This document shows positions 805-28,033 of a stretch of 47,080 nucleotides of DNA, piece by piece. Made by a program: the position numbers and the translations under genes. The DNA is from a virus. Position 1 is the stretch's first letter; each line of letters starts with the position of its first letter. The notes under the pieces are model-generated. The model made no database searches. It was not told where the DNA came from and worked only from the letters and a program-made list of their open reading frames with translations. The stretch covers positions 1-47,080 of the IMG/VR virus record IMGVR_UViG_3300031974_001781; one strand, given 5' to 3'.

Positions 805-884
805 ACGACTAGATACAGTGTAGAATGACCGGTATCTATATAAATTTTGTAGAAAAAAATTTTGTTTTGTTTTATATCTTTACA

Positions 885-1532
885 ATGGCATTTTTAAATA
901 GTAGCATCCCACCTATATATTGTAAAATAAGAACGGAGTATTTGTATGATCTCAATCCAAAGTATAAAGGACAAAGCAAAGACTGTGTTATCTTCGGCCT
1001 TACAAGTATTGCAGGCCGTGCGATCCTTTTCAACATCATGCTACCCAATGGTGCGTGCTTTTGGCGATTGCCTATCTCAGCGTTTTTCAACCAACGTAAT
1101 GATCGTGCCGAAGTGCCTGATATGCCAGAGGACCAGCTCGAATTGTGGAATAGTTTTGATTATTGGCATAGCGTTAATCACTTTGCTTTTTTAACAGGAC
1201 AACGAGGAAAATTTCTTGGTAAAGATAAAAAATTCTATTCTGGTGAGTATCTATTTACCGTTGATTGGTGCCATGCTGATCCCAATCTACTTGATACTGA
1301 TCATTCTGAAATTCCTCAAGAGCATAAGTGTGCTCACATCTTGGAACTTGACAATGGTAATTTCGCTGCTCAACCAAATAACAGGATATTATGGAATGTT
1401 AATTCGTTCACAACAAAACGAGAATGGCCAGACTACAAAGTCCAAACATCATACTGGAACGTAGAAAATAAAGATTGGAGAACTGATGATACTGATCGTT
1501 TCTTCTACGAAATAGAAGAAAAGAAAAAATAA
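885..1532 (+). CDS. Conserved phage protein upstream of terminase (215 aa), unknown
   Basis: The reading frame is open from 825, but I prefer the ATG at 885. The 20 residues before it look like translated leader, and the sequence from MAFLNSSIPPIYCKIRTEYL onward looks like a compact conserved domain. The protein is rich in aromatic residues (Trp, Tyr, Phe) and contains His/Asp-rich stretches (DWCHADPN, DTDHSE), but no catalytic signature I can name. It lies upstream of a glycosyltransferase and the large terminase. The 1000-1150 part is visibly more GC-rich than neighbouring genes, with codons such as GGC, GCC, CGT and CTC. The product is likely soluble and its function unknown. Confidence 0.7.
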   Translation: MAFLNSSIPPIYCKIRTEYLYDLNPKYKGQSKDCVIFGLTSIAGRAILFNIMLPNGACFWRLPISAFFNQRNDRAEVPDMPEDQLELWNSFDYWHSVNHFAFLTGQRGKFLGKDKKFYSGEYLFTVDWCHADPNLLDTDHSEIPQEHKCAHILELDNGNFAAQPNNRILWNVNSFTTKREWPDYKVQTSYWNVENKDWRTDDTDRFFYEIEEKKK

Positions 1533-17684: not shown

Positions 17685-17700
17685 GGAGATAAATCCTTAT
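17681..17700 (+). promoter_or_regulatory. Hairpin sequestering the Shine-Dalgarno and start
   Basis: ATAAGGA (17681-17687) is the exact complement of TCCTTAT (17694-17700) around a 6-nt loop. The left arm holds most of the AAGGAG ribosome-binding site and the previous stop; the right arm runs into the ATG at 17699. Translation by ribosomes finishing the upstream gene would open it, giving coupling. Confidence 0.45.
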
Positions 17701-18784
17701 GGCAGCACCGTGGAGTAGTGGTAATTGGAACTTTGGTACATGGAATGACTCTGCTGGTGGCGCAGTCATTGATGGTCAAGGTGTTACTACTTCACTTGGA
17801 AGTATTACTGTTGAAGCAGAATTAAGAACTGGTTGGGGTAGACAAACCTGGAGTTCTTTTGAATGGAATAATGGTCCTGATGCTTTTATACCTCTTACAG
17901 GTAATGAAAGTAATGCTTCTCAAGGTAATCCTACTTTAACTGGAAGCGCAATAACTCCTATTACAGGAGATGTAATAAATGCATTAGTAAATAATGTAAC
18001 TGTATCTGGTTCAAAGACTTCTCAAATAACTGGTCAACAAGTAACTGCTACAGCAAATAATATTGTAGTTGGTGAAGGAACTTCTGCAACTATTACTGGT
18101 CAACAAATTGAAACTAATTTAAATGCTGGTACTGGATGGAGTAGAGATGAATGGAGTAATGGTCCTTGGAATACAGATTTAACAAGTATTGTTGTAGGTG
18201 ATGGAATTATATTTGTTGAAGATGGTCAAGCATTATCAATTAATTTAAATAATGTAACTGTAACAGGAAGTTCACCTATCTCTATAAGTGGTCAAAGTTT
18301 AACTTCGTCTTTAGGTGATACAACTTTAAATACTAATAATTTCATATCAATTGATGGAGAACCTTTAGTTGCTGCAACAGTTGATAGTTTTGCTGTAGCA
18401 GCTGGTGGGGCAATTACCATTAATACTCCTACGTTTGAAGCAAATGTAGAGGTAAGCAATGTTACTACTGGAAGTGCTTCATTTACAAGTATAACTGGTC
18501 AACAATTAAATGTTGTTGCAAATGATATTACAACAGCAACTGAAAACTTTATATCAATAACTGGCCAAGAAATAACTCCTAGTGTTAATACAGTAACAAT
18601 CAGCGCAAGTCAAATATTATCTATTACAGGAAATGGAGTTACTATTAGCTCTGCTAGTATAATACCTAAATCTGAAAACTTCCTAAGTATGCAAGGAAAT
18701 CAAGCAAATGTTAGTGTACAAACACTTAAATTTTGGGATCCAATTACTGGTAATATTACTGAAACTTGGACTAATATTCACTAG
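17699..18784 (+). CDS. Repeat-containing tail protein (361 aa)
   Basis: Two or three N-terminal Trp-rich modules (WGRQTWSSFEWNNGP, GWSRDEWSNGPWN) are followed by imperfect ~30-aa repeats, each with an ITGQQ-like core: QITGQQV, TITGQQI, SISGQSL, SIDGEPL, SITGQQL, SITGQEI, SITGNGV. Such repeats give beta-rich fibres and are common in marine-phage tail proteins. No enzyme motif. Probably part of a fibre or spike that meets the host. Confidence 0.7.
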   Translation: MAAPWSSGNWNFGTWNDSAGGAVIDGQGVTTSLGSITVEAELRTGWGRQTWSSFEWNNGPDAFIPLTGNESNASQGNPTLTGSAITPITGDVINALVNNVTVSGSKTSQITGQQVTATANNIVVGEGTSATITGQQIETNLNAGTGWSRDEWSNGPWNTDLTSIVVGDGIIFVEDGQALSINLNNVTVTGSSPISISGQSLTSSLGDTTLNTNNFISIDGEPLVAATVDSFAVAAGGAITINTPTFEANVEVSNVTTGSASFTSITGQQLNVVANDITTATENFISITGQEITPSVNTVTISASQILSITGNGVTISSASIIPKSENFLSMQGNQANVSVQTLKFWDPITGNITETWTNIH

Positions 18785-18852: not shown

Positions 18853-19899
18853 ATGCCATCAAGTTTTACATCGAGATTAAAATTAGAAAGACAAGCGTCT
18901 GGAGAAAATTCAGGAACTTGGGGTAATCTAGTTAATTATGTTTTCAATAGAGTTGACGCATCAGTTTCAGGTTATCAATCTGTTAGTGTTGCAGGATCTG
19001 CTAACGTAACATTAACATCAAATAACTCAACAAGTAATACTGATGATGACGCTACAGATGATCAAGTACATAACAAAGTATTAGAATTTACAGGATCACT
19101 AGGTGCTGACATTCATGTTTTTACTGATGCAGTAGAACAAAATTATATTTTATTTAATAATACAACAGGAAGTCAAACATTAACTTTTGCAAATACAGGT
19201 CATGCTGCAAATGGTGTAGCTCTTAAACAAGGAGCTAAAACAATGGTTTACTCTGATGGAAGTTCTATAACTGATGTAATGGCTGATCTAGGAGATATTA
19301 CAGCAACATCTGTAACTGCTTCTGGAAATGTTTCAGGTGCATTATTAACTTCTACAGGAAATGTTTCAGGTACAAATTTAAATGCTACTGCTAATGTAGT
19401 TTCTATTGCAGGTGCAGCACCTAACATAGCTTCAACAACAGCTAACGCTGATATACTTCTATCGCCAAATGGTGTTGCAGGTAGAGTTACATTTAATGGT
19501 GGTGGTAAAATTCAACAAACTGCTGAAAAAATTACTATTTCAGCAACTGCAGCTACAGGTACAATTAACTTTGATGTAACTACTCAAGCAATATTATATT
19601 ACACAACTAATGCTTCAGGTAACTACACTCTTAATATCAGAGGTGATGCATCAAACACTTTAAATAATATAATGGATACAGGTGAATCTTTAACTGTTGT
19701 ACATATGGTAACTAATGGTGGAACTGCTTATTATAATAACGCTGTTCAAGTAGATGGTTCAAGTGTTACTCCAGAATGGCAAGGTGGTTCAGCTCCAACA
19801 GGTGGAAATACAAACTCAGTTGATATTTATTCTTATACTGTTGTAAAAACAGGAGATGCAGCTTTTACAGTATTTGCTAGCCAGACACAATTTGCTTAA
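18853..19899 (+). CDS. Tail fibre protein (348 aa)
   Basis: The opening MPSSFTSRLKLERQASGENS followed by GTWGNLVNYVFNRVD is the N-terminal signature of a fibre family I know from cyanophages and pelagiphages. The middle has repeated TSTGNVSG units (ASGNVSGALLTSTGNVSG, GTNLNATANV), and the rest is Thr/Asn/Ala/Gly-rich beta structure. Attached to the tail, it would help recognise the host surface. Confidence 0.75.
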   Translation: MPSSFTSRLKLERQASGENSGTWGNLVNYVFNRVDASVSGYQSVSVAGSANVTLTSNNSTSNTDDDATDDQVHNKVLEFTGSLGADIHVFTDAVEQNYILFNNTTGSQTLTFANTGHAANGVALKQGAKTMVYSDGSSITDVMADLGDITATSVTASGNVSGALLTSTGNVSGTNLNATANVVSIAGAAPNIASTTANADILLSPNGVAGRVTFNGGGKIQQTAEKITISATAATGTINFDVTTQAILYYTTNASGNYTLNIRGDASNTLNNIMDTGESLTVVHMVTNGGTAYYNNAVQVDGSSVTPEWQGGSAPTGGNTNSVDIYSYTVVKTGDAAFTVFASQTQFA

Positions 19900-19917
19900 T
19901 AGGAGGATTTATAAATA

Positions 19918-20688
19918 ATGCCACTTCTTTCAACTAGAGCAGCTGGATCAGCAAGAGGATTTGGTTTCCAAGGCGGCGGTGAATTATTTTTAATTGGAAC
20001 TGGTGGAACTATTACTCAAGATGGTTCTTTTCAAATTCATACTTTTACTTCAGGTGGAACATTTGAAGTTACACAATTAGCAACAGACCCTGCAAATGAT
20101 GTAATTGAATATTTATTATCAGCAGGTGGTGCAGGTTCAGGATCAGGCGGAGCTCCAGATATGTGGGGTGGCGGCGGTGCTGGCGGTTGTAAAACTGAAT
20201 CTAGTCAACCTGTTGCTCAACAAACTTATCCAGTATCAGTAGGAACTGGCGGAGGTCAAGGCGGAGCAGGAGGATCATCTGCTTTTTACGGTCAAACTGG
20301 AAACGGTGGAGGCCGAGGTGGTGGACAGAACCAAAGTGGATCACCAGGAGGATCAGGCGGTGGCGGAGGCCAGGGCGCTGGATCACCAGGTGGCGGAGGC
20401 CAAGGAGGTTTTGGAAACTCTGGTGGAAGCGGAGGATCAGGTTGGTCATATGCTGGTGGCGGAGGCGGTAAAAACGGTTCTGGCGGAAGCGGACCAAAAG
20501 CAGGTGGAGCAGCATTACCATCATCAATCAGAGGAACTGCAGAGAATTTTTCTGGTGGAGGCGGAGGAGCAAGTCCAGGTTCAACTGGGCCTCAAGCAAC
20601 TTCTATTTTTGGAATGGGTGGAACTCGTGGAGCAACATCAGGTCAAGCAGGTGTGGTTATCGTTAAATATAGATATCAGGCGGATTAA
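19918..20688 (+). CDS. Glycine-rich tail fibre/adhesin (256 aa)
   Basis: Residues about 75-235 are extremely Gly-rich with Ser, Pro and Gln (for example GSGGGGGQGAGSPGGGGQGG), preceded by a beta segment (FQIHTFTSGGTFEV) and closed by GQAGVVIVKYRYQAD. This arrangement matches glycine-rich fibre-tip domains in marine phages, which form polyglycine-type lattices for receptor binding. Pro residues follow Ser/Gly repeatedly. It lies a short distance upstream of the hydroxylase-like genes. Confidence 0.75.
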   Translation: MPLLSTRAAGSARGFGFQGGGELFLIGTGGTITQDGSFQIHTFTSGGTFEVTQLATDPANDVIEYLLSAGGAGSGSGGAPDMWGGGGAGGCKTESSQPVAQQTYPVSVGTGGGQGGAGGSSAFYGQTGNGGGRGGGQNQSGSPGGSGGGGGQGAGSPGGGGQGGFGNSGGSGGSGWSYAGGGGGKNGSGGSGPKAGGAALPSSIRGTAENFSGGGGGASPGSTGPQATSIFGMGGTRGATSGQAGVVIVKYRYQAD

Positions 20689-20690
20689 TT

Positions 20691-21104
20691 ATGGTTTATT
20701 TTTGTGAAATAAATGATTCAAATGTAGTTGTAAATATAACTAATTGGGAAGATAGTATTTTAGGAAATCCTGCATCTGAAGCAAATGGAAAATCTTATCT
20801 AGCTACTTTCTTTAGTAAATCAGCTGATAAATTTGTTCAAACATTTACTGATGGAACAAGAAAACAACAAGCAGGTGTAGATTACACATGGGACTCAACA
20901 AATAATGTTTTTATACAACCAAAACCTTTTTCATCTTGGACTTTAGATTCAAATTATGATTGGCAACCACCAGTAGCTGACCCTGAAACAGAGGGTTATA
21001 GAAGAAGATGGAATGAAGATTTACAAACATGGGACGGATTAAAAATTTCTGATAATTCTAATTGGTTATGGAATACAACTACTAATCAGTGGGATAGCCA
21101 GTAA
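20691..21104 (+). CDS. Small fibre-associated protein (137 aa), cyanophage type
   Basis: Trp/Asp/Asn-rich, with YTWDSTNNVFIQPKPFSSWT then LDSNYDWQPPVADPETEGYR, and a C-terminal WNTTTNQWDSQ. The motif order (Y-W-D-S-N-F-PPKP-F-SW) is shared with cyanophage structural proteins beside tail fibres. Probably a fibre connector or chaperone. Starts 3 nt after the Gly-rich gene. Confidence 0.65.
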   Translation: MVYFCEINDSNVVVNITNWEDSILGNPASEANGKSYLATFFSKSADKFVQTFTDGTRKQQAGVDYTWDSTNNVFIQPKPFSSWTLDSNYDWQPPVADPETEGYRRRWNEDLQTWDGLKISDNSNWLWNTTTNQWDSQ

Positions 21105-21108
21105 AAAT

Positions 21109-21138
21109 TTGTTTTTCTTTTCTTAAAGAAAATATAAT
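21109..21138 (+). promoter_or_regulatory. Candidate sigma70-type promoter for the oxygenase island
   Basis: TTGTTT (21109-21114) and TATAAT (21133-21138) are separated by 18 nt. The first ATG of the island is at 21148, only 9 nt after the -10 box, and no Shine-Dalgarno is present, so the mRNA would be leaderless or nearly so. A TTTTCTTT/AAAGAAAA hairpin (21113-21132) fills the spacer. Confidence 0.5.
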
Positions 21139-21147
21139 TTACAATTA

Positions 21148-21765
21148 ATGCAACTTAAAAACAATTTTTGGTTTTTCGAAAAGGCTTTGTCAGAAAGTTT
21201 TTGTAACGAAATTATAAAGAGTGGTTTTGATGCTAATCCTAAATTAGCTAAAACTCATAAATATCATAATAAAAAAATAACATCAAAAAATAAAAAAGAT
21301 TTAAAAAAACTTAGAGATTCAAATGTAGCTTTTTTAGATCATCCTTGGATTTATAAAGATATAGATCAAATATTTAAAGCAGCAAATCATAACGCAAGAT
21401 GGAATTTTCAATATGATTTTTATGAAGCAACTCAATTTACTGTTTACGAAAAAAATCAACATTATGGTTGGCATGTAGATGCAAATGTTGATCCATATTC
21501 TAATAATGTTTATGAAAACTATAAAGGTAAAATTAGAAAATTATCTGCAACAATAGCTCTTAATGATGCAAAAGATTATAAAGGAGGTGAATTTCAAATT
21601 GATTTAAGCACTCCTACAGAAAAAAGATTATTTAAAGTACCCTCTTTAAAAAAGAAAGGGTCTATAGTAATATTTCCTTCTCATCTACAACATAGAGTTA
21701 CTCCAGTTACAAAAGGAATTAGATATTCTTTAGTTATTTGGGCTTTAGGATTACCATGGCGATAG
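21148..21765 (+). CDS. 2OG-Fe(II) oxygenase (PKHD-type hydroxylase-like)
   Basis: 205 aa with the facial triad and co-substrate Arg in place: YGWHVDA gives His109 and Asp111, LQHRV gives His182, GIRYSLVIW gives Arg192. Spacing matches PiuC/PKHD-type dioxygenases, which hydroxylate a carbon using 2-oxoglutarate and O2. The substrate is unknown; protein side chains (fibre or host protein) or small molecules are possible. First gene of the island, behind a candidate own promoter. It overlaps the next gene by 10 nt. Confidence 0.82.
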   Translation: MQLKNNFWFFEKALSESFCNEIIKSGFDANPKLAKTHKYHNKKITSKNKKDLKKLRDSNVAFLDHPWIYKDIDQIFKAANHNARWNFQYDFYEATQFTVYEKNQHYGWHVDANVDPYSNNVYENYKGKIRKLSATIALNDAKDYKGGEFQIDLSTPTEKRLFKVPSLKKKGSIVIFPSHLQHRVTPVTKGIRYSLVIWALGLPWR

Positions 21766-22352
21766 TAAAATATAAAATTATAAGAAAAGCTATTAATAAA
21801 GATTTAGCTGAATTTTGTTTTAATTATTTCAATTTAAAAAAACAAGTTGTGTCTTATTTATTTGAAACTAATTTTATATCAAAACATAATCCTTTATTTG
21901 GCACATATGCAGATCAACAAGTTCCAAATACTTATTCTCATTATGCAGATTTTGTTATGGAAACTTTATTATTAAAATGTCAAGATATATTAGAAAAAGA
22001 AATTAAAGTAAAATTACAGCCAGCATACTCATATGCTAGAATATATAAAAAAGGAGATATTTTAAAAAAACATAAAGATAGATTTAGTTGTGAATTATCA
22101 GTAACTTTGAATTTAGGTGGAGATGCATGGCCTATATATTTAAAAGATAAAAAAACAATTAAAGTAGATTTAAAACCTGGAGATATGTTATTTTATCATG
22201 GTTGTGAATTAGAACATTGGAGAGATGCTTTAAAAGGAGAAAATTGTACACAAGTTTTTTTACACTATAATAGGTCGACAAAAGATAATAAAAATAATAT
22301 ATATGATCGTAGACCTATGCTAGGTTTACCAGCAGAATACAGAAGAACATGA
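21756..22352 (+). CDS. 2OG-Fe(II) oxygenase-like protein (198 aa)
   Basis: The true start is likely the ATG at 21756, because the frame upstream only has a TTG. SYARIYKKGDILKKHKDRFS supplies His106-x-Asp108, and PGDMLFYHGCELEHWRDA supplies His154. The co-substrate Arg/basic position near HYNRS is less certain. A typical jelly-roll (ELSVTLNLGGD, WPIYLKDKK) sits between. Same superfamily as the upstream gene but clearly another branch. Substrate unknown. Overlaps the next gene by 4 nt. Confidence 0.78.
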   Translation: MAIVKYKIIRKAINKDLAEFCFNYFNLKKQVVSYLFETNFISKHNPLFGTYADQQVPNTYSHYADFVMETLLLKCQDILEKEIKVKLQPAYSYARIYKKGDILKKHKDRFSCELSVTLNLGGDAWPIYLKDKKTIKVDLKPGDMLFYHGCELEHWRDALKGENCTQVFLHYNRSTKDNKNNIYDRRPMLGLPAEYRRT

Positions 22353-22822
22353 AAGTAAAATTAATACAACCAAAACTTTTTACATCTCCTTTTTCTTTTT
22401 TCTTTAGATTTTTTATAGGAATTAAAAAGTTAAAAATTAAATCAAATAAAATAGATAAAAACTTTGAATTTGAATTAAGACAAGCATATACTGAATATTG
22501 TACCTCAGTAAAAATTGTCCCTGAAACTTGTTATTACGAAATAACTGATAAGCCAACTCCATCTGATATTCATCAATGGTCTTATTTAAAAGGTGTAATT
22601 AATTTAGATAATATAGGTCAAACGATATTTAGATTACCATTTCAATTCAATGGCAAATATGGAGAGTTAAAAATCAAAAATAAAAAAAATCAAATTTTAA
22701 TAGGAGAAGAAAATTTAGATATTACAAGTCGTGGTAAAAATATTTTCTTTAATCTTCATTATCATAAAAATCCTAAATCTAAAAAACATAAATTATTAAT
22801 AGATTTGTCATCAGGCAATTAA
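22349..22822 (+). CDS. Unknown protein (157 aa) in the oxygenase island
   Basis: Basic, aromatic and probably beta-rich (SYLKGVINLDNIGQTIFRLP). It lacks an HxD...H triad, Cys cluster and membrane span. Sandwiched by 1- to 4-nt overlaps between two 2OG-oxygenase genes, it must be cotranslated with them and may be an accessory or substrate-binding protein. The N-terminus (FTSPFSFFFRFFIGIKKL) is hydrophobic and could be membrane-associated. Confidence 0.6.
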   Translation: MKVKLIQPKLFTSPFSFFFRFFIGIKKLKIKSNKIDKNFEFELRQAYTEYCTSVKIVPETCYYEITDKPTPSDIHQWSYLKGVINLDNIGQTIFRLPFQFNGKYGELKIKNKKNQILIGEENLDITSRGKNIFFNLHYHKNPKSKKHKLLIDLSSGN

Positions 22823-23355
22823 TGAATTTATTTGAAATACCTTATTTGAAACTAAGCTGTTCTAATTGGAAACAAAAGAAAAAGAAATTAGATAAATTAA
22901 CAAAGAATCAAAAACTATCTAGGCAAAGTCATAACATATTTTCAACTACTAAAAATGTTAATTTTAAAGGACGAGAAAATTATGTTGATCAATTTACTGA
23001 TATTTTTAAAGAGGAGTTTGAAAAATTTGGCAATCAATTTAAATTTAAAAAATTACATATAAAAGATATATGGACAGTTGTTTATGATCAACACGATTAT
23101 CAAACACCTCATCATCATGGTATGATGGGTTGGTCAGGTATTTTATATTACGATTATATACAAGAACAACCATCAACAATATTTATTCAGCCTTGGCATT
23201 GTTTAAAAGAAGGAGTTACTAAGTTGAAAAGTTTAGATACGAAAGAAGGAGATATGATTTTCTTTCCAAGTTTTATTTTGCATTTTTGTCCAAGTAATCA
23301 TTTGAAAAAGAAAAGAAAAATTATTTCTTGGGACTTAACCAGTGAATCTATTTAA
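22822..23355 (+). CDS. 2OG-Fe(II) oxygenase-like protein (PF13759-type)
   Basis: 177 aa. YQTPHHHGMMGWSGILYYDY matches the N-x-H-x-H...SG-YY pattern of the 2OG-FeII_Oxy_5 group, with His97/His99 as metal candidates. EGDMIFFPSFILHFCPSN gives the distal His154, and Arg165 in KKKRKIISWDL is a candidate co-substrate ligand. The first metal site is H-x-H rather than H-x-D, as in that group. It ends 8 nt inside the convergent - strand gene. Confidence 0.72.
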   Translation: MNLFEIPYLKLSCSNWKQKKKKLDKLTKNQKLSRQSHNIFSTTKNVNFKGRENYVDQFTDIFKEEFEKFGNQFKFKKLHIKDIWTVVYDQHDYQTPHHHGMMGWSGILYYDYIQEQPSTIFIQPWHCLKEGVTKLKSLDTKEGDMIFFPSFILHFCPSNHLKKKRKIISWDLTSESI

Positions 23356-23866
23356 AAGTATAAACTAAGACAACTCTCCTATTCTTTTTAGGAGATGTTC
23401 CAATATGCCAGCATTTAGGAAAACTAACAGCTCTAAATTGTTTTGGTTTTATTTTTTTAAATACTGTTTTTTTATCATCTTTAAATAAAAGAGTTTCACC
23501 ATCTTTGTTTTTAGTTAAATAAATTAATAAGTGATTGTAATTAGTATCGTGATCAGTATGCATAAATGATTTATTTTCTTGAGGAAAATTAGTATTTAAA
23601 CAACATCTTAATATCTTTTCATATCTAATTTTATGTTTTTTACAAAATTTATCTAATAAGGATACACAAAAACTAGATATGTGAGATGTGTGTCCACCCC
23701 CTAATTCTATTCTTTGAATAATGCAATGTGAATAAAACCAATAATTATCTCCTTTGTTTGATTCTTCATTATAGTACCAAGGAAAATTATGATCTAATAT
23801 TGTTTTATTAATAAAATTAATTTCTTTTTTACTTAAAAAATTATCGTCTTGAATAAATTTTTTCAT
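23348..23866 (-). CDS. Prolyl-4-hydroxylase-like 2OG-Fe(II) oxygenase
   Basis: 172 aa. SFMHTDHDTNYNHLLIYL provides His103 and Asp105 (HTD), FPKCWHIGTSP the distal His154 and NRRVVLVYTF the Arg164. The jelly roll between carries GETLLFKDDKK. Layout fits prolyl- and lysyl-hydroxylase-like enzymes in giant and marine viruses. Its start shares a base with the upstream - strand stop (TAATG), so it is the third gene of a halogenase operon. Confidence 0.82.
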   Translation of the reverse strand: MKKFIQDDNFLSKKEINFINKTILDHNFPWYYNEESNKGDNYWFYSHCIIQRIELGGGHTSHISSFCVSLLDKFCKKHKIRYEKILRCCLNTNFPQENKSFMHTDHDTNYNHLLIYLTKNKDGETLLFKDDKKTVFKKIKPKQFRAVSFPKCWHIGTSPKKNRRVVLVYTFK

Positions 23867-24543
23867 TAAAGATATCTTTTAGTATTAGGTATAGGAAGAC
23901 GTTTAGCTCCATGAATATTACTAAAAAATGTAATTAATGTTATTCTGTCTTCTTTCACTTTAGGATCATAAAAATTTTCAACGCCATGATATTGAAAACT
24001 ATCAAATATAAACAAACGATTGTATACAGATTCAACTTTTACTGTTCTTTCAAAATCTTGGTTTTGTTCATCTCTTGCTTTAAAATATCTTTGATCGTAT
24101 TTTTTATTTGATCCGTAATATTCTTTTTTAATAACATTATTTTTAATATGATATTCTCTTTGAAAAGGAAATTGTCCTTCTTTTCTTTTATATAAAGAAG
24201 TTCCACAATTTTTATGTTTAGAAAGATATACTATCGCTGTAAATTCAAAATCATTATCATTATGTATCCAGCCATGACCTTCTTTTGGATTTGGTTTTAT
24301 AAATTGAAATGTTTGATAAGCATCAAAACTTAATCTAAAATCTTCTGGTTGATTATTAAACACTGCAGATGCAATTTTATTTGTACTCCAACTAAAAAAA
24401 TCTTTCTTAACTAAGTGTAAAGGTTTTGTTCTTTCTCCAGGATAAGCATTCATATTTTCTGCTTTTTCTAAAGAAAGACCTATATCTCTAATTTCATCAG
24501 GATCATTAAAAAAATTATCTATAATTATACTTGGATATATCAT
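23866..24543 (-). CDS. DUF6445-like 2OG-Fe(II) oxygenase-fold protein
   Basis: 225 aa. The N-terminus (IYPSIIIDNFFNDPDEIRDI, then YPGERTKPLH) fits DUF6445, and the body keeps a dioxygenase layout: GHGWIHNDNDF gives His94-Asp96, SFQYHGVEN gives His186, EDRITLITFFS gives Arg200. DUF6445 genes accompany flavin halogenases in bacteria and phages, as here. It probably hydroxylates the same or a related substrate. It overlaps the halogenase end by 29 nt. Confidence 0.78.
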   Translation of the reverse strand: MIYPSIIIDNFFNDPDEIRDIGLSLEKAENMNAYPGERTKPLHLVKKDFFSWSTNKIASAVFNNQPEDFRLSFDAYQTFQFIKPNPKEGHGWIHNDNDFEFTAIVYLSKHKNCGTSLYKRKEGQFPFQREYHIKNNVIKKEYYGSNKKYDQRYFKARDEQNQDFERTVKVESVYNRLFIFDSFQYHGVENFYDPKVKEDRITLITFFSNIHGAKRLPIPNTKRYL

Positions 24544-25663
24544 TCTTTTTAGTTACTCCTTCTTTCCATAAGTTTATATTCCATGTTTCCCATTGAGCAT
24601 ATTCAATATCATTATTAGTTTTACTTCTTAAATAAGGTTGATCTTTATCTTTTAAATTTTTTAAAATTAAATCTAAATCTTCACCTCTATTATTTTTTGC
24701 TAGTTTTGTAGCATGTTTCCAAAAAGGTGTTTTATAAATTGATCCTGTTTCATAATGCCATAAAATAAAATTTTGAACTTTATTTATATAATCTTTTATT
24801 CTTTTAGTTGATTGTTCTAAGGTACATGTTTTATCTATAATAGCATCCCAAATATATTGACACCAAACTTGATATGTATTTACAGCTGTTGCTTCTAAAG
24901 GCTCTAAAAAGAAAAATCTATTTCCATTTAATATAACTCTATTATCTATAATTGGATTTTTAGCCATATATTGTTTAAAAGAAAAATCAGCATTAATTTT
25001 ATCAATGCCAAAAAGTTCTTTAAAATTATTTTTCGCTTTTTCTATGCTTGTAATTTTATTATTAAAATTATAACCTAAAGATACTCGTTCTTGTAAAGGT
25101 ATGTAAAAACACCAACCATCTTTCGTAGCTATTGTTCTTGTCCAAGATACGTCATTTAATTTTACAGGTAGAGAACCTAATAAAACATGGTTTAAAGGAT
25201 TAATTAATTTATCATAACCTTTAAATGATTTTGGAGTTCCTCTACAATCAATAATATAGTCAGCATCAATTTCATCATAAGTTACAATATTTTCATCTTT
25301 TTCTATAAAATTTACTTTTAAATTATCTAATACAAATCGTTGAAATTGTGATGGATTAAAATGTATAGAATACGAACCAAATGGAAAATGATGCATAATT
25401 AATTTATTTTTATTGCCCCAATTCTCATACATAATTCCAGTCTTTTGTGTATATGAAAATTTAGATGTTATATCAGCTCCAATTGCTTGCCAAAGTAATC
25501 TAGGTAAAGGTAAAGTTGTGGCTTGTCCAACTGGTACAGGAGCTATTTTACTATCATGTATAGTTTCTATTTCGATAGGTTTATTAAGGAATTTACCATA
25601 ATGATGAAAATGTAATGCTGAAACACAACCAGCGTTTCCTTTTCCAATAATACTTATTTTCAT
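24515..25663 (-). CDS. Flavin-dependent (tryptophan-type) halogenase
   Basis: 382 aa. GKGNAG (7-12) is the FAD-binding GxGxxG; PVGQATTLP (44-52) is the halogenase GxATxP segment; Lys74 in QKTGIMYENWG aligns with the catalytic Lys (FKxGIxFxNW) that forms the halogenating species; GWCFYIPL (183-190) is the WxWxIP motif with Phe for the second Trp; Glu257 in FLEPLEATAV aligns with the catalytic Glu of EPLESTG. It is shorter than typical tryptophan halogenases (about 500 aa). Reduced FAD must come from a host reductase; none is in the window. Substrate unknown: free or protein-bound aromatic. Viral halogenases such as cyanophage VirX1 are known. Confidence 0.85.
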   Translation of the reverse strand: MKISIIGKGNAGCVSALHFHHYGKFLNKPIEIETIHDSKIAPVPVGQATTLPLPRLLWQAIGADITSKFSYTQKTGIMYENWGNKNKLIMHHFPFGSYSIHFNPSQFQRFVLDNLKVNFIEKDENIVTYDEIDADYIIDCRGTPKSFKGYDKLINPLNHVLLGSLPVKLNDVSWTRTIATKDGWCFYIPLQERVSLGYNFNNKITSIEKAKNNFKELFGIDKINADFSFKQYMAKNPIIDNRVILNGNRFFFLEPLEATAVNTYQVWCQYIWDAIIDKTCTLEQSTKRIKDYINKVQNFILWHYETGSIYKTPFWKHATKLAKNNRGEDLDLILKNLKDKDQPYLRSKTNNDIEYAQWETWNINLWKEGVTKKNDISKYNYR

Positions 25664-25730
25664 AGAGAGAACTTAATATATCTAACTAATTTTAAATACA
25701 AAATATAGTTTAAATATTGTTTTTTTGTTA

Positions 25731-25736
25731 TATAAT
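25731..25736 (+). promoter_or_regulatory. TATAAT 8 nt before the tail-gene ATG
   Basis: A perfect TATAAT is followed by ATTGATT and then the ATG at 25744 with no Shine-Dalgarno. A T-rich TTGTTTTTTT run lies immediately upstream, but a well-spaced -35 is not obvious. Same layout as at 21133-21148, pointing to a leaderless-type start after the island. Confidence 0.45.
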
Positions 25737-25743
25737 ATTGATT

Positions 25744-27591
25744 ATGCCATTAACACAGTTAAATTTTCAACCAGGATTAGATACCGAAAACACAGAAACA
25801 GGTGCGGAAGGTAGATGGATTAATTGTGATAAAGTTAGATTTAGAAAAGGTTTACCTCAAAAGATTGGTGGCTGGATTAAATTTAGTCAAGATTATTATG
25901 TTGGAGTAGGTAGAGCTTTAGAGCAATGGTTTGCTAATGATGGTAATCGTTATGAAGGTTTAGGAACAGATAGAAAAGTTTATATTTATAGAGCAGGAGA
26001 TAATCAAGATATTACTCCTATTCGTCAGTCTAATACATTATCTAATGTATTTAACACAACAGCTTCAAGTGCTAATATCACAGTAAATCATTCTTCTCAC
26101 GGTGCAGTTGAAGGTGATTTTGTTACGATATCTAATTGTAGTCTTACAAGTGTAGGAGGAATAGCTAATTCTAGTATTGACGCAGAATACCAAATTGCTT
26201 CAATCACAAATGCTGATGCATATGTAATTATATCAAATGATACAGCTACATCAAGCAATACGACTATTGCTAATGCTGATTTTTCTTATCAAATAAGTAC
26301 AGGGCCAGATAAGCAAACTTTTGGTTTTGGTTATGGTACAGGTACTTGGAATTTAAGCACGTGGTCTACTCCAAGGTCTACATCTAATGTGACACTAGAT
26401 ATGAGACAATGGTCTATGAATAATTGGGGAGAAGATTTAATTTTTACAGCGAGAGATGGAGCTACTTATTTATGGGATACATCAAATGGTATGAGTAGTA
26501 ATCCTGCAACAATAATTGCAAACGCTCCTACGGCAAGTACGTTATCTGTAATTTCTACAGAAACAAGGCATTTAATTTGCATGGGAACTGAAACTACAAT
26601 AGGAGATACGAGTACACAAGATAAAATGTTTATTCGTTTTAGTGATCAAGAAAACTTTGACACTTTTATACCAAACACAACTAATTCTGCTGGTTCACAA
26701 AGAATAGCAGGCGGAAGTGAAATTAGATGTGCTAAACCTGCAAAAGGAACTATCTTAGTATGGACAGATACAACATTACATTCAATGTCTTTTATTGGTC
26801 CACCTTTTATATTTGGTTTTAGACAATTAGGTAACGACTGCGGAGCTGTTGGTCTTAACTCTGCGATAGTAATAGATGATATTGCTTATTGGATGTCCGA
26901 TGGTCAATTTTTTAGATTTGCAGGCGCTGTTCAAGAATTACCTTGTCCGATACTTAATCATGTATTTAACGATATTAATAAAGGCCAATATGCGCAAGTC
27001 TATGCAGGTCTAACATCAGACTTTTCTGAAGTAATATGGTATTATTGTTCAAGCTCCTCGGATCAAATAGATAAATATGTTATTTTTAACTATATGGAAA
27101 ATAGTTGGTACTTTGGTAGTTTAGCAAGAAGTACCTATCAAGATAATGGTGTTGAATTAAATCCACTAGCTACTGAGTATTTAGAAAATTCTACAGCAAA
27201 TACTTATACTCAAATAAATGGTTTAACAGCAGGCAGAAGTTTAATCTATCGACATGAATCAGGCGTAGATGCTGATGGAACTGCTTTATCAGCTTTTATT
27301 GAATCCGGCGATGGAGATATTGCAGATGGAGAAACATTTAGTTTTATTAATAAAGTAATACCAGATTTTAAAAATCAAACAGGTAACGCTGTTATTACTT
27401 TAAAAGCAAGAGATTATCCAAATGATACAAAAACAACTGGAGAAGCTATTACAGTATCTAACACAACATCTTTTTATAATTCAAGAATAAGAGGACGACA
27501 GGCGTCTATTAAGATAGAAAATTCAGAATTAGGTAGTAATTGGCGATTTGGTACATTAAGAATCAACGTAAGACCAGATGGAAAAAGATAA
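25744..27591 (+). CDS. Tail/structural protein (615 aa), gp10-like candidate
   Basis: The frame opens at 25717 with a TTG, but the ATG at 25744 (MPLTQLNFQPGLDTENTETG) is the likely start because it fits the conserved N-terminus QLNFQPGLDTE...GRW. Trp/Asn/Ser-rich beta structure throughout, with a C-terminal half resembling P22-type tail-stabilisation (gp10-like) proteins that close the portal channel. No enzyme motif. It restarts the virion block after the - strand island. Confidence 0.7.
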   Translation: MPLTQLNFQPGLDTENTETGAEGRWINCDKVRFRKGLPQKIGGWIKFSQDYYVGVGRALEQWFANDGNRYEGLGTDRKVYIYRAGDNQDITPIRQSNTLSNVFNTTASSANITVNHSSHGAVEGDFVTISNCSLTSVGGIANSSIDAEYQIASITNADAYVIISNDTATSSNTTIANADFSYQISTGPDKQTFGFGYGTGTWNLSTWSTPRSTSNVTLDMRQWSMNNWGEDLIFTARDGATYLWDTSNGMSSNPATIIANAPTASTLSVISTETRHLICMGTETTIGDTSTQDKMFIRFSDQENFDTFIPNTTNSAGSQRIAGGSEIRCAKPAKGTILVWTDTTLHSMSFIGPPFIFGFRQLGNDCGAVGLNSAIVIDDIAYWMSDGQFFRFAGAVQELPCPILNHVFNDINKGQYAQVYAGLTSDFSEVIWYYCSSSSDQIDKYVIFNYMENSWYFGSLARSTYQDNGVELNPLATEYLENSTANTYTQINGLTAGRSLIYRHESGVDADGTALSAFIESGDGDIADGETFSFINKVIPDFKNQTGNAVITLKARDYPNDTKTTGEAITVSNTTSFYNSRIRGRQASIKIENSELGSNWRFGTLRINVRPDGKR

Positions 27592-28033
27592 ATATAGAAT
27601 TAGACAGGCTCGAATTGATGAGGCTGTTAAAATAAGAGAATTATTAAAAACTTGGTTAAAAGAAGCGCCTTTTAACTTTGGCAATACAAATAATAAAAAA
27701 TCTCTTGAAAATATAGTATTTTACATTAAGAATAGTTTTGTTATAGTAGTAGAATATGAAAATGTTATTGTTGGCACACTCGCTGCTACAATAGACGAAA
27801 CTTGGTACAGTGACAAAAAGTTTTTAAGAACTCTTTGGCTACATGTGCATCCTAAGTATCGTAATTTTCATGTCTTTAGAGCTATGATGTTAGTTTTTAA
27901 AGAATACGCTTTAACTAAAAAGGTTACTGCGATTTGTGAAATTTTTCAGGGTAAAGACGTTGGCAGAAAACACAACGCTTTTACTAAATTAGGATTTGAA
28001 GTTATTGGAGGAACATATATAGTCAATGGGTAG
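27578..28033 (+). CDS. GNAT-like acetyltransferase (151 aa)
   Basis: It begins YRIRQARIDEAVKIRELLKT, followed by FVIVVEYENVIVGTLAATID and LRTLWLHVHPKYRNFHVFRA; this strand-helix order and the VHPKYRN-(x)-R acetyl-CoA loop fit the GNAT fold. Acceptor unknown (virion or host protein). It overlaps the tail gene by 14 nt and the next by 8. Several podoviruses carry a GNAT between tail genes. Confidence 0.65.
   Translation: MEKDKYRIRQARIDEAVKIRELLKTWLKEAPFNFGNTNNKKSLENIVFYIKNSFVIVVEYENVIVGTLAATIDETWYSDKKFLRTLWLHVHPKYRNFHVFRAMMLVFKEYALTKKVTAICEIFQGKDVGRKHNAFTKLGFEVIGGTYIVNG

Follow-up and report, generated by a model that had tools for sequence, protein, structure and literature searches.

The viral contig IMGVR_UViG_3300031974_001781 (47 kb; its full 47,080 nucleotides are hereafter called the window) carries a seven-gene enzyme island at positions 21148–25663, between fibre-tip genes upstream and the tail gene TAIL downstream. 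We are highly confident that the enzymes of such islands are co-inherited with the tip-associated protein f137, and not with the structural backbone of the phage. Tentatively, and as a reading that for its whole chain falls somewhat short of probable, we propose that the region represents one form of an exchangeable module for host recognition, whose enzymes would tailor the tip proteins of the virion.

The island comprises OG1, OG2, UNK and OG3 on the plus strand, followed by OG4, OG5 and HAL on the minus strand. All open reading frames (ORFs) lie at the places and on the strands given in the initial annotation, and the two groups converge with the 8-nt overlap described there (23348–23355). 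Family matches and conserved residues bear out its description of five 2-oxoglutarate (2OG)-Fe(II) oxygenase-like proteins, one orphan and a flavin halogenase. For OG1, OG3, OG4, OG5 and HAL the support was drawn from Pfam, PHROGs and NCBIfam together. Because the ORFs are long, overlapping and catalytically conserved, and hundreds of viral contigs hold relatives of them, they are beyond what chance would produce.

Enzyme sets follow the tip

We surveyed 80 contigs related to the window by the tail gene, together with further sets retrieved with the halogenase and with another tail gene as queries; labels such as L005 and L085 denote these related loci. TAIL is 74–89% identical across the 80 syntenic loci. 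Nearly all relatives have an enzyme slot between the tip genes and TAIL; its content is hypervariable, and it can hold as many as 11 oxygenase genes, on either strand. The comparison of syntenic tail loci proposed in the initial annotation shows the enzyme set to be a gain or an exchange, as the closest syntenic relative, L005, has a TAIL 89% identical to that of the window and a different set. Nor are these core virion genes devoid of catalytic residues, a contrary outcome considered there: slot contents vary, and the catalytic residues are conserved. The window's own combination is rare and shared only with the near-twins L085, L086 and L088. All seven genes are present in L088; OG3 and OG5 are missing from L085, and in L086 two other oxygenases replace OG3.

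In relatives, the enzymes are replaced by or combined with carbamoyltransferases (15 loci), sulfotransferases (6 of the set) and other halogenases, and most of the carbamoyl- and sulfotransferases lie inside the slot. Carbamoyltransferases of PF02543/PF16861 and sulfotransferases of PF13469/PF00685 stand there alongside oxygenases (L050, L073, L082, L084, L105, L171, L175, L184, L218, L234, L239; L023, L067, L181). An uncharacterised protein of about 109–117 residues also recurs just upstream of TAIL, at the slot end or beside TAIL, in L005, L016, L096, L110, L114 and others.

Association was measured over 75 non-redundant loci, with slot genes counted as shared at 60% identity. The shared fraction rises with f137 identity when TAIL is controlled for (partial Spearman 0.37, permutation p 0.001) and is unrelated to TAIL identity (–0.01, p ~0.6), even though f137 and TAIL both border the slot. 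Locus pairs with similar f137 and distant TAIL have 45% of their slot genes in common, against 2.5% for pairs with distant f137 and similar TAIL. The f137 association persists when the window's group is removed, when each backbone set is analysed on its own and when the loci are thinned (four subsets), and OG1, OG2 and the short halogenase each track f137 identity. If every enzyme of the second locus is allowed as a match, the enzyme adjoining TAIL follows f137 (0.23) rather than TAIL (0.02); under a stricter position-to-position test it weakly tracks both.

Enzyme content also varies with the type of tip. Among loci that extend 3 kb or more upstream of TAIL, oxygenases are present in 79/79 with a glycine-rich/f137 tip, in 26/26 with a Collar tip and in 0/5 with a LamG/SPRY tip, the last five representing only about three lineages, which inflates the Fisher significance. 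If the length rule is dropped, oxygenases are present in 92 of 96 tip loci; they also occur in another 25 loci without a recognised tip. The grouping of tip, f137 and oxygenases extends to the T4-like SAR11 phage HTVC008M and the T4-like cyanophages S-SM1, S-SSM5, S-MS29 and S-CAM8, with differing gene order and strand. In S-SSM5, S-MS29 and S-CAM8, a carbamoyltransferase opens the cluster.

These patterns bear on the possibility that the genes are auxiliary metabolic ones whose products act on the host's metabolism (the 2OG pool, iron or secondary metabolites) and merely hitch-hike with the tip in an exchangeable region. This is the published view of marine phage 2OG genes, as put in passages of PMC3037559, PMC9599517 and PMC9602691, and between conserved flanks linkage would be enough for joint exchange. 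Yet TAIL, which borders the slot too, does not track the enzymes, and its immediate neighbour, under any-enzyme matching, follows f137 instead. Recurrence of the f137 grouping in other phage families with another gene order, and LamG-tip loci that lack the enzymes, also speak against it. We regard a metabolic role as unlikely. A defence system was likewise considered and rejected, having yielded only a generic '2OG' model and weak matches.

The exchanged block and its borders

The near-twins delimit what is exchanged. In L085, L086 and L088, the flanking structural proteins are only 22–47% identical to those of the window (TAIL 32–41%), and the fibre protein f348 is 45–52% identical overall. 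By comparison, the glycine-rich candidate tip protein GLY reaches 72–75%, f137 54–77% and the island proteins 62–86%. GLY of loci with the same backbone as the window is 31–46% identical. The fibre protein itself is split: its residues 1–200 (30–40% identical to the near-twins) belong, by this measure, to the backbone, and its C-terminal part, 201–348 (66–82%), to the exchanged module. At the DNA level, homology with the near-twins runs from 19449–19480, inside f348, to 25664 at the start of HAL. Homology with the same-backbone loci stops at about 19899–19916 and restarts at 25695–25741; in that comparison L018 has an extra short homology patch in the tip gene, and OG1 and OG2 match patchily. 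From these borders and the split f348, the exchanged unit is seen to consist of distal fibre, tip, f137 and enzymes, set between conserved flanks.

The island had initially been described as a mobile metabolic cassette. That description stands in so far as the enzymes travel with the fibre tip and the flanks on either side stay conserved. It falls short in two respects: no gene for mobility was recognised, and the exchanged block is larger than the island, taking in the fibre C-terminus and the two tip genes as well. Searches of Pfam, PHROGs and NCBIfam recognised no integrase, transposase or homing endonuclease in the slot, and the terminal repeats sought at the island were not convincing. 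A self-mobile element inserted between tail genes might be suspected from the sharp borders, the presence in distant backbones and the G+C content of the enzyme genes (0.24–0.25, against about 0.31). Since the slot shows neither a recognised recombinase nor convincing repeats, and the borders fall inside or at conserved genes and enclose a fibre C-terminus, such an element is largely refuted and scarcely credible. The arrangement is instead reminiscent of host-range module exchange in phages, in which distal fibre and tip are likewise swapped between conserved flanks; here, unlike there, a set of modifying enzymes accompanies the tip.

The oxygenases and the orphan protein

The catalytic residues of OG1, OG2, OG4, OG5 and HAL are kept across relatives. 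OG1 has its nearest solved relatives in PKHD/PiuC and prolyl 4-hydroxylase (P4H) structures of the Protein Data Bank (PDB), and H109, D111, H182 and R192 are invariant in 41 aligned sequences. Known PKHD and prolyl 4-hydroxylases include protein hydroxylases, and we count the resemblance of OG1 to them in favour of virion-protein tailoring. The iron triad and distal arginine are also invariant in OG4 (H103, D105, H154, R164; 8 sequences) and OG5 (H94, D96, H186, R200; 9 sequences).

OG2 is more divergent. The HxD...H residues H110, D112 and H158 are invariant in 41 sequences, its Pfam match (PF13532) is weak, and it weakly resembles TET-like dioxygenases (0.03). Fold-level membership of the 2OG-Fe(II) superfamily rests on a profile match between the OG2 and OG1 families (94% probability, 1.8e-7), which falls to 2.6% when the two small alignments are used alone. 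A ferrochelatase identity was not borne out: the name is found in PHROGs only (phrog_2954), with no ferrochelatase profile among the Pfam/NCBIfam matches. The family phrog_2954/T4-GC 615, called 'ferrochelatase' in pelagiphages and cyanophages, thus looks like a 2OG oxygenase, and the published reading of it as an iron/heme partner may rest on the name.

The similarity of OG2 to TET-like dioxygenases and PF13532, together with the DNA repair earlier proposed for cyanophage 2OG proteins, would fit enzymes that modify phage DNA through TET/JBP/AlkB-like chemistry or repair. We consider this very improbable given the position beside tip genes, the diversity of the enzyme set, the presence of sulfotransferases, carbamoyltransferases and halogenases, and the lack of any link to replication genes at these loci.

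OG3 has HxH...H (H97, H99, H154) instead of HxD...H, and its PF13759 match exceeds the cut-off. In a wide family alignment of 217 members, HxH is the commonest form (98), followed by HxD (84) and HxE (28), and PF13759-type proteins may possess a three-histidine iron site. The 157-residue UNK yielded no Pfam or NCBIfam match and no PDB relative; it occurs only in the window and three other loci, and its structure model has no confidence.

A compact flavin-dependent halogenase

HAL carries an N-terminal GxGxxG flavin adenine dinucleotide (FAD) motif with G7, G9 and G12 invariant in 61 sequences. K74 and E257 are equally invariant and align with the matching positions of solved halogenases. We take their counterparts in PrnA numbering to be the catalytic K79 and E346. 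The tryptophan-halogenase motif WxWxIP is replaced by W184-x-F186-x-I188-P189, with phenylalanine for the second tryptophan in 61/61 sequences. An AlphaFold model built from the 61-sequence alignment (predicted local distance difference test, pLDDT, 90) gives template modelling scores (TM-scores) of 0.75–0.81, by query length, to PrnA, PyrH, RebH and others. Because the predicted fold, the profile and the catalytic residues fit, while WxWxIP does not, we assign HAL, as a predicted enzyme, to the flavin-dependent halogenase superfamily and not to the canonical tryptophan halogenases. It resembles PrnA, PyrH and RebH in predicted fold, FAD motif and catalytic lysine and glutamate. However, it is about 120 residues shorter, has WxFxIP and an alanine after the catalytic glutamate, and tryptophan is only a putative substrate for it. 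The cyanophage halogenase VirX1 (PDB 6qgm; Gkotsi et al. 2019) is likewise viral and of the same superfamily, but has 531 residues against 382 in HAL, and the match is local only (residues 175–322, E 3.6e-8).

Relatives of HAL are carried by at least 570 viral contigs, hundreds of them marine. A scan of cellular genomes, based on two peptide patterns, returned five: four contigs of marine metagenome-assembled genomes (34–45%), which may themselves be viral, and one distant Actinomadura match. A cellular origin was rejected on this showing. In L109, L133, L135, L141, L148, L154 and L159, a compact halogenase lies in a second slot, which has head genes on one side and, on the other, the tail genes that precede f361; an uncharacterised protein of about 158 residues often follows the halogenase. 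Two halogenase genes, either compact alone or compact plus one of about 490–512 residues, occur in L101, L104, L106, L108, L120, L143, L145 and L147. Upstream of the exchanged unit, at 17699–18784, the window encodes a fibre-like protein with Trp-rich repeats (GWGRQTWSSFEWNNG, GTGWSRDEWSNGPWN), by composition only a possible halogenase substrate.

A proposed role in tailoring the virion tip

The suggestion of the initial annotation that the enzymes modify a virion protein is, in our judgement, the best reading. Co-inheritance with the tip is demonstrated; substrate, timing and effect we infer. In the proposed scheme, the oxygenases would hydroxylate side chains of the tip protein and/or f137 during virion assembly, and HAL would halogenate aromatic residues (Trp or Tyr) of the tip proteins. 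In other versions of the module, carbamoyl or sulfo groups could cap such sites. Each tip would thereby receive its own chemical finish, which might stabilise it or tune and diversify receptor binding. More generally, marine phages may carry modular virion-decorating chemistry, each tip travelling with its own oxygenases, halogenases and carbamoyl- or sulfotransferases that modify tip residues, a generalisation we put forward as plausible but not yet probable.

Alternatively, the target of the enzymes could be the surface of the host, the receptor or a precursor of surface glycans, lipids or peptides, the pairing with the tip then arising from the common receptor; this might, for instance, keep out rival phages or prevent progeny from binding again. 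Co-inheritance with the tip is explained equally well in this way, and the carbamoyl- and sulfotransferases are accounted for too. The enzymes, however, are small and soluble-looking and match no glycan- or lipid-modifying family in Pfam, PHROGs or NCBIfam, and a host-surface role sits poorly with several enzymes that differ from genome to genome, up to 11 oxygenases among them. We therefore hold it to be rather improbable.

Several observations weigh against tailoring of the tip. Exchange of a block between conserved flanks would co-transport tip and enzymes even without a functional tie. The presence of some halogenases in the second slot, between head and tail genes, weakens an exclusive link between halogenase and tip. 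In Greip, CRP-143, CRP-207, Melnitz, zth2-2 and two Manatee Spring phages, f137 stands with glycine-rich or fibre-like proteins and without recognised oxygenases, which indicates that the tip does not always need them. Likewise, in the short loci L060, L077, L223 and L247, which the 3-kb rule excluded, f137 adjoins TAIL with no oxygenase in view. Finally, 32 comparisons of tip, f137, fibre and tail proteins gave no residue signature of a halogenase substrate that was convincing after correction.

Relation to earlier work

Clusters of 2OG genes and halogenases in marine phages are already known. For HTVC023P-type pelagiphages, Wittmers et al. (2022, PMC9599517) classed 2OG clusters with 'ferrochelatase' partners as auxiliary metabolic genes. 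The cultured phages HTVC023P and HTVC033P each carry f137 along with OG1 and OG2. The clusters so described belong to the same phage type and families, with several non-orthologous 2OG genes and the OG2 family. The word halogenase is absent from the text of Wittmers et al., whereas we link the set to the tail tip, to halogenases and to other tailoring enzymes, and read the 'ferrochelatase' partner as oxygenase-like. The same enzyme families, 2OG clusters and PrnA-type halogenases, appear in passages on T4-like cyanophages and HTVC008M (Sullivan et al. 2010, PMC3037559); there they are explained by host 2OG/nitrogen status or DNA repair, and those passages draw no link to the tip. Passages of PMC3037559, PMC2984593 and PMC9602691 connect cyanophage 2OG enzymes with DNA repair or with the host's 2OG levels and, as speculation, the halogenases with antibiotic protection. 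We found no earlier report of a link between enzymes and tail tip in the open-access papers searched.

A functional precedent is offered by Mimivirus, which, according to passages of PMC9546862, encodes a collagen lysyl hydroxylase and glycosyltransferase alongside its own collagen-like proteins, that is, a 2OG-dependent hydroxylase together with the fibrous proteins of the virus. Mimivirus and its enzymes are unrelated to those of the window, for which the substrate is only a proposal.

Among the 'auxiliary metabolic genes' of marine phages, 2OG oxygenases and halogenases are frequent and unexplained; published proposals invoke host metabolism or DNA repair. An enzyme set that tracks the tip and not the backbone directs attention to the virion tip proteins. 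If our reading is true, phages apply enzymatic chemistry to their receptor-binding parts, the diversity of receptor binding has a chemical component besides that of sequence, and the compact halogenases, a mostly viral family, gain a natural protein substrate.

Layout of the locus and neighbouring genes

Table 1. Features of the exchanged module and its flanks (window coordinates)
Feature	Position	Strand	Basis
f348, fibre protein	18853..19899	+	fibre role inferred from position
GLY, glycine-rich protein, candidate receptor-binding tip	19918..20688	+	phrog_2295 4.9e-25; PF21722 Gly_rich_2 0.0028, below cut-off
f137, tip-associated protein, conserved Pro/Trp motif	20691..21104	+	phrog_7759 3.3e-19; alignment
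OG1, PKHD/P4H-like 2OG-Fe(II) oxygenase	21148..21765	+	PF13640 8e-16
OG2, divergent 2OG-like oxygenase	21756..22352 (start approximate)	+	phrog_2954 1.9e-52
UNK, 157-aa orphan	22349..22822	+	family match not convincing
OG3, PF13759-type oxygenase	22822..23355	+	PF13759 6.8e-7; phrog_81 1.5e-30
OG4, P4H-like 2OG oxygenase	23348..23866	-	phrog_274 6e-32; PF13640 6e-4 (below curated cut-off)
OG5, DUF6445-type 2OG oxygenase	23866..24543	-	PF20043 1.9e-13
HAL, compact flavin-dependent halogenase, 382 aa	24515..25663	-	PF04820 1e-31; phrog_2928 2e-68
Divergent intergenic stretch with right border of exchanged module (~25664-25695)	25664..25743		DNA homology limits
TAIL, virion structural protein of backbone, right flank	25744..27591	+	phrog_3287 2e-78

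The TAIL ORF opens at a TTG at 25717, and the ATG at 25744 is the likelier start. Candidate promoters had been noted at both outer ends of the island; this claim found no support, as promoter-like sites show no excess (34 sigma-70-like sites, against 39.8 ± 6.3 in shuffled sequences). Terminator-like sites at the island borders number 3, against 1.4 in the same kind of comparison.

Among annotated phages, DNA relatives of the island are partial only (60–80%). A SAR11-type host is likely for this marine phage, because its structural genes are distantly related to those of HTVC023P and HTVC027P, phages that infect SAR11. A ferredoxin-type protein at the left end of the window (825–1532; phrog_3704, 2.6e-75) is a possible electron source, untied to the island. 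Directly 3' of TAIL, at 27578–28033, lies a GNAT acetyltransferase that is up to 99% conserved in same-backbone loci.

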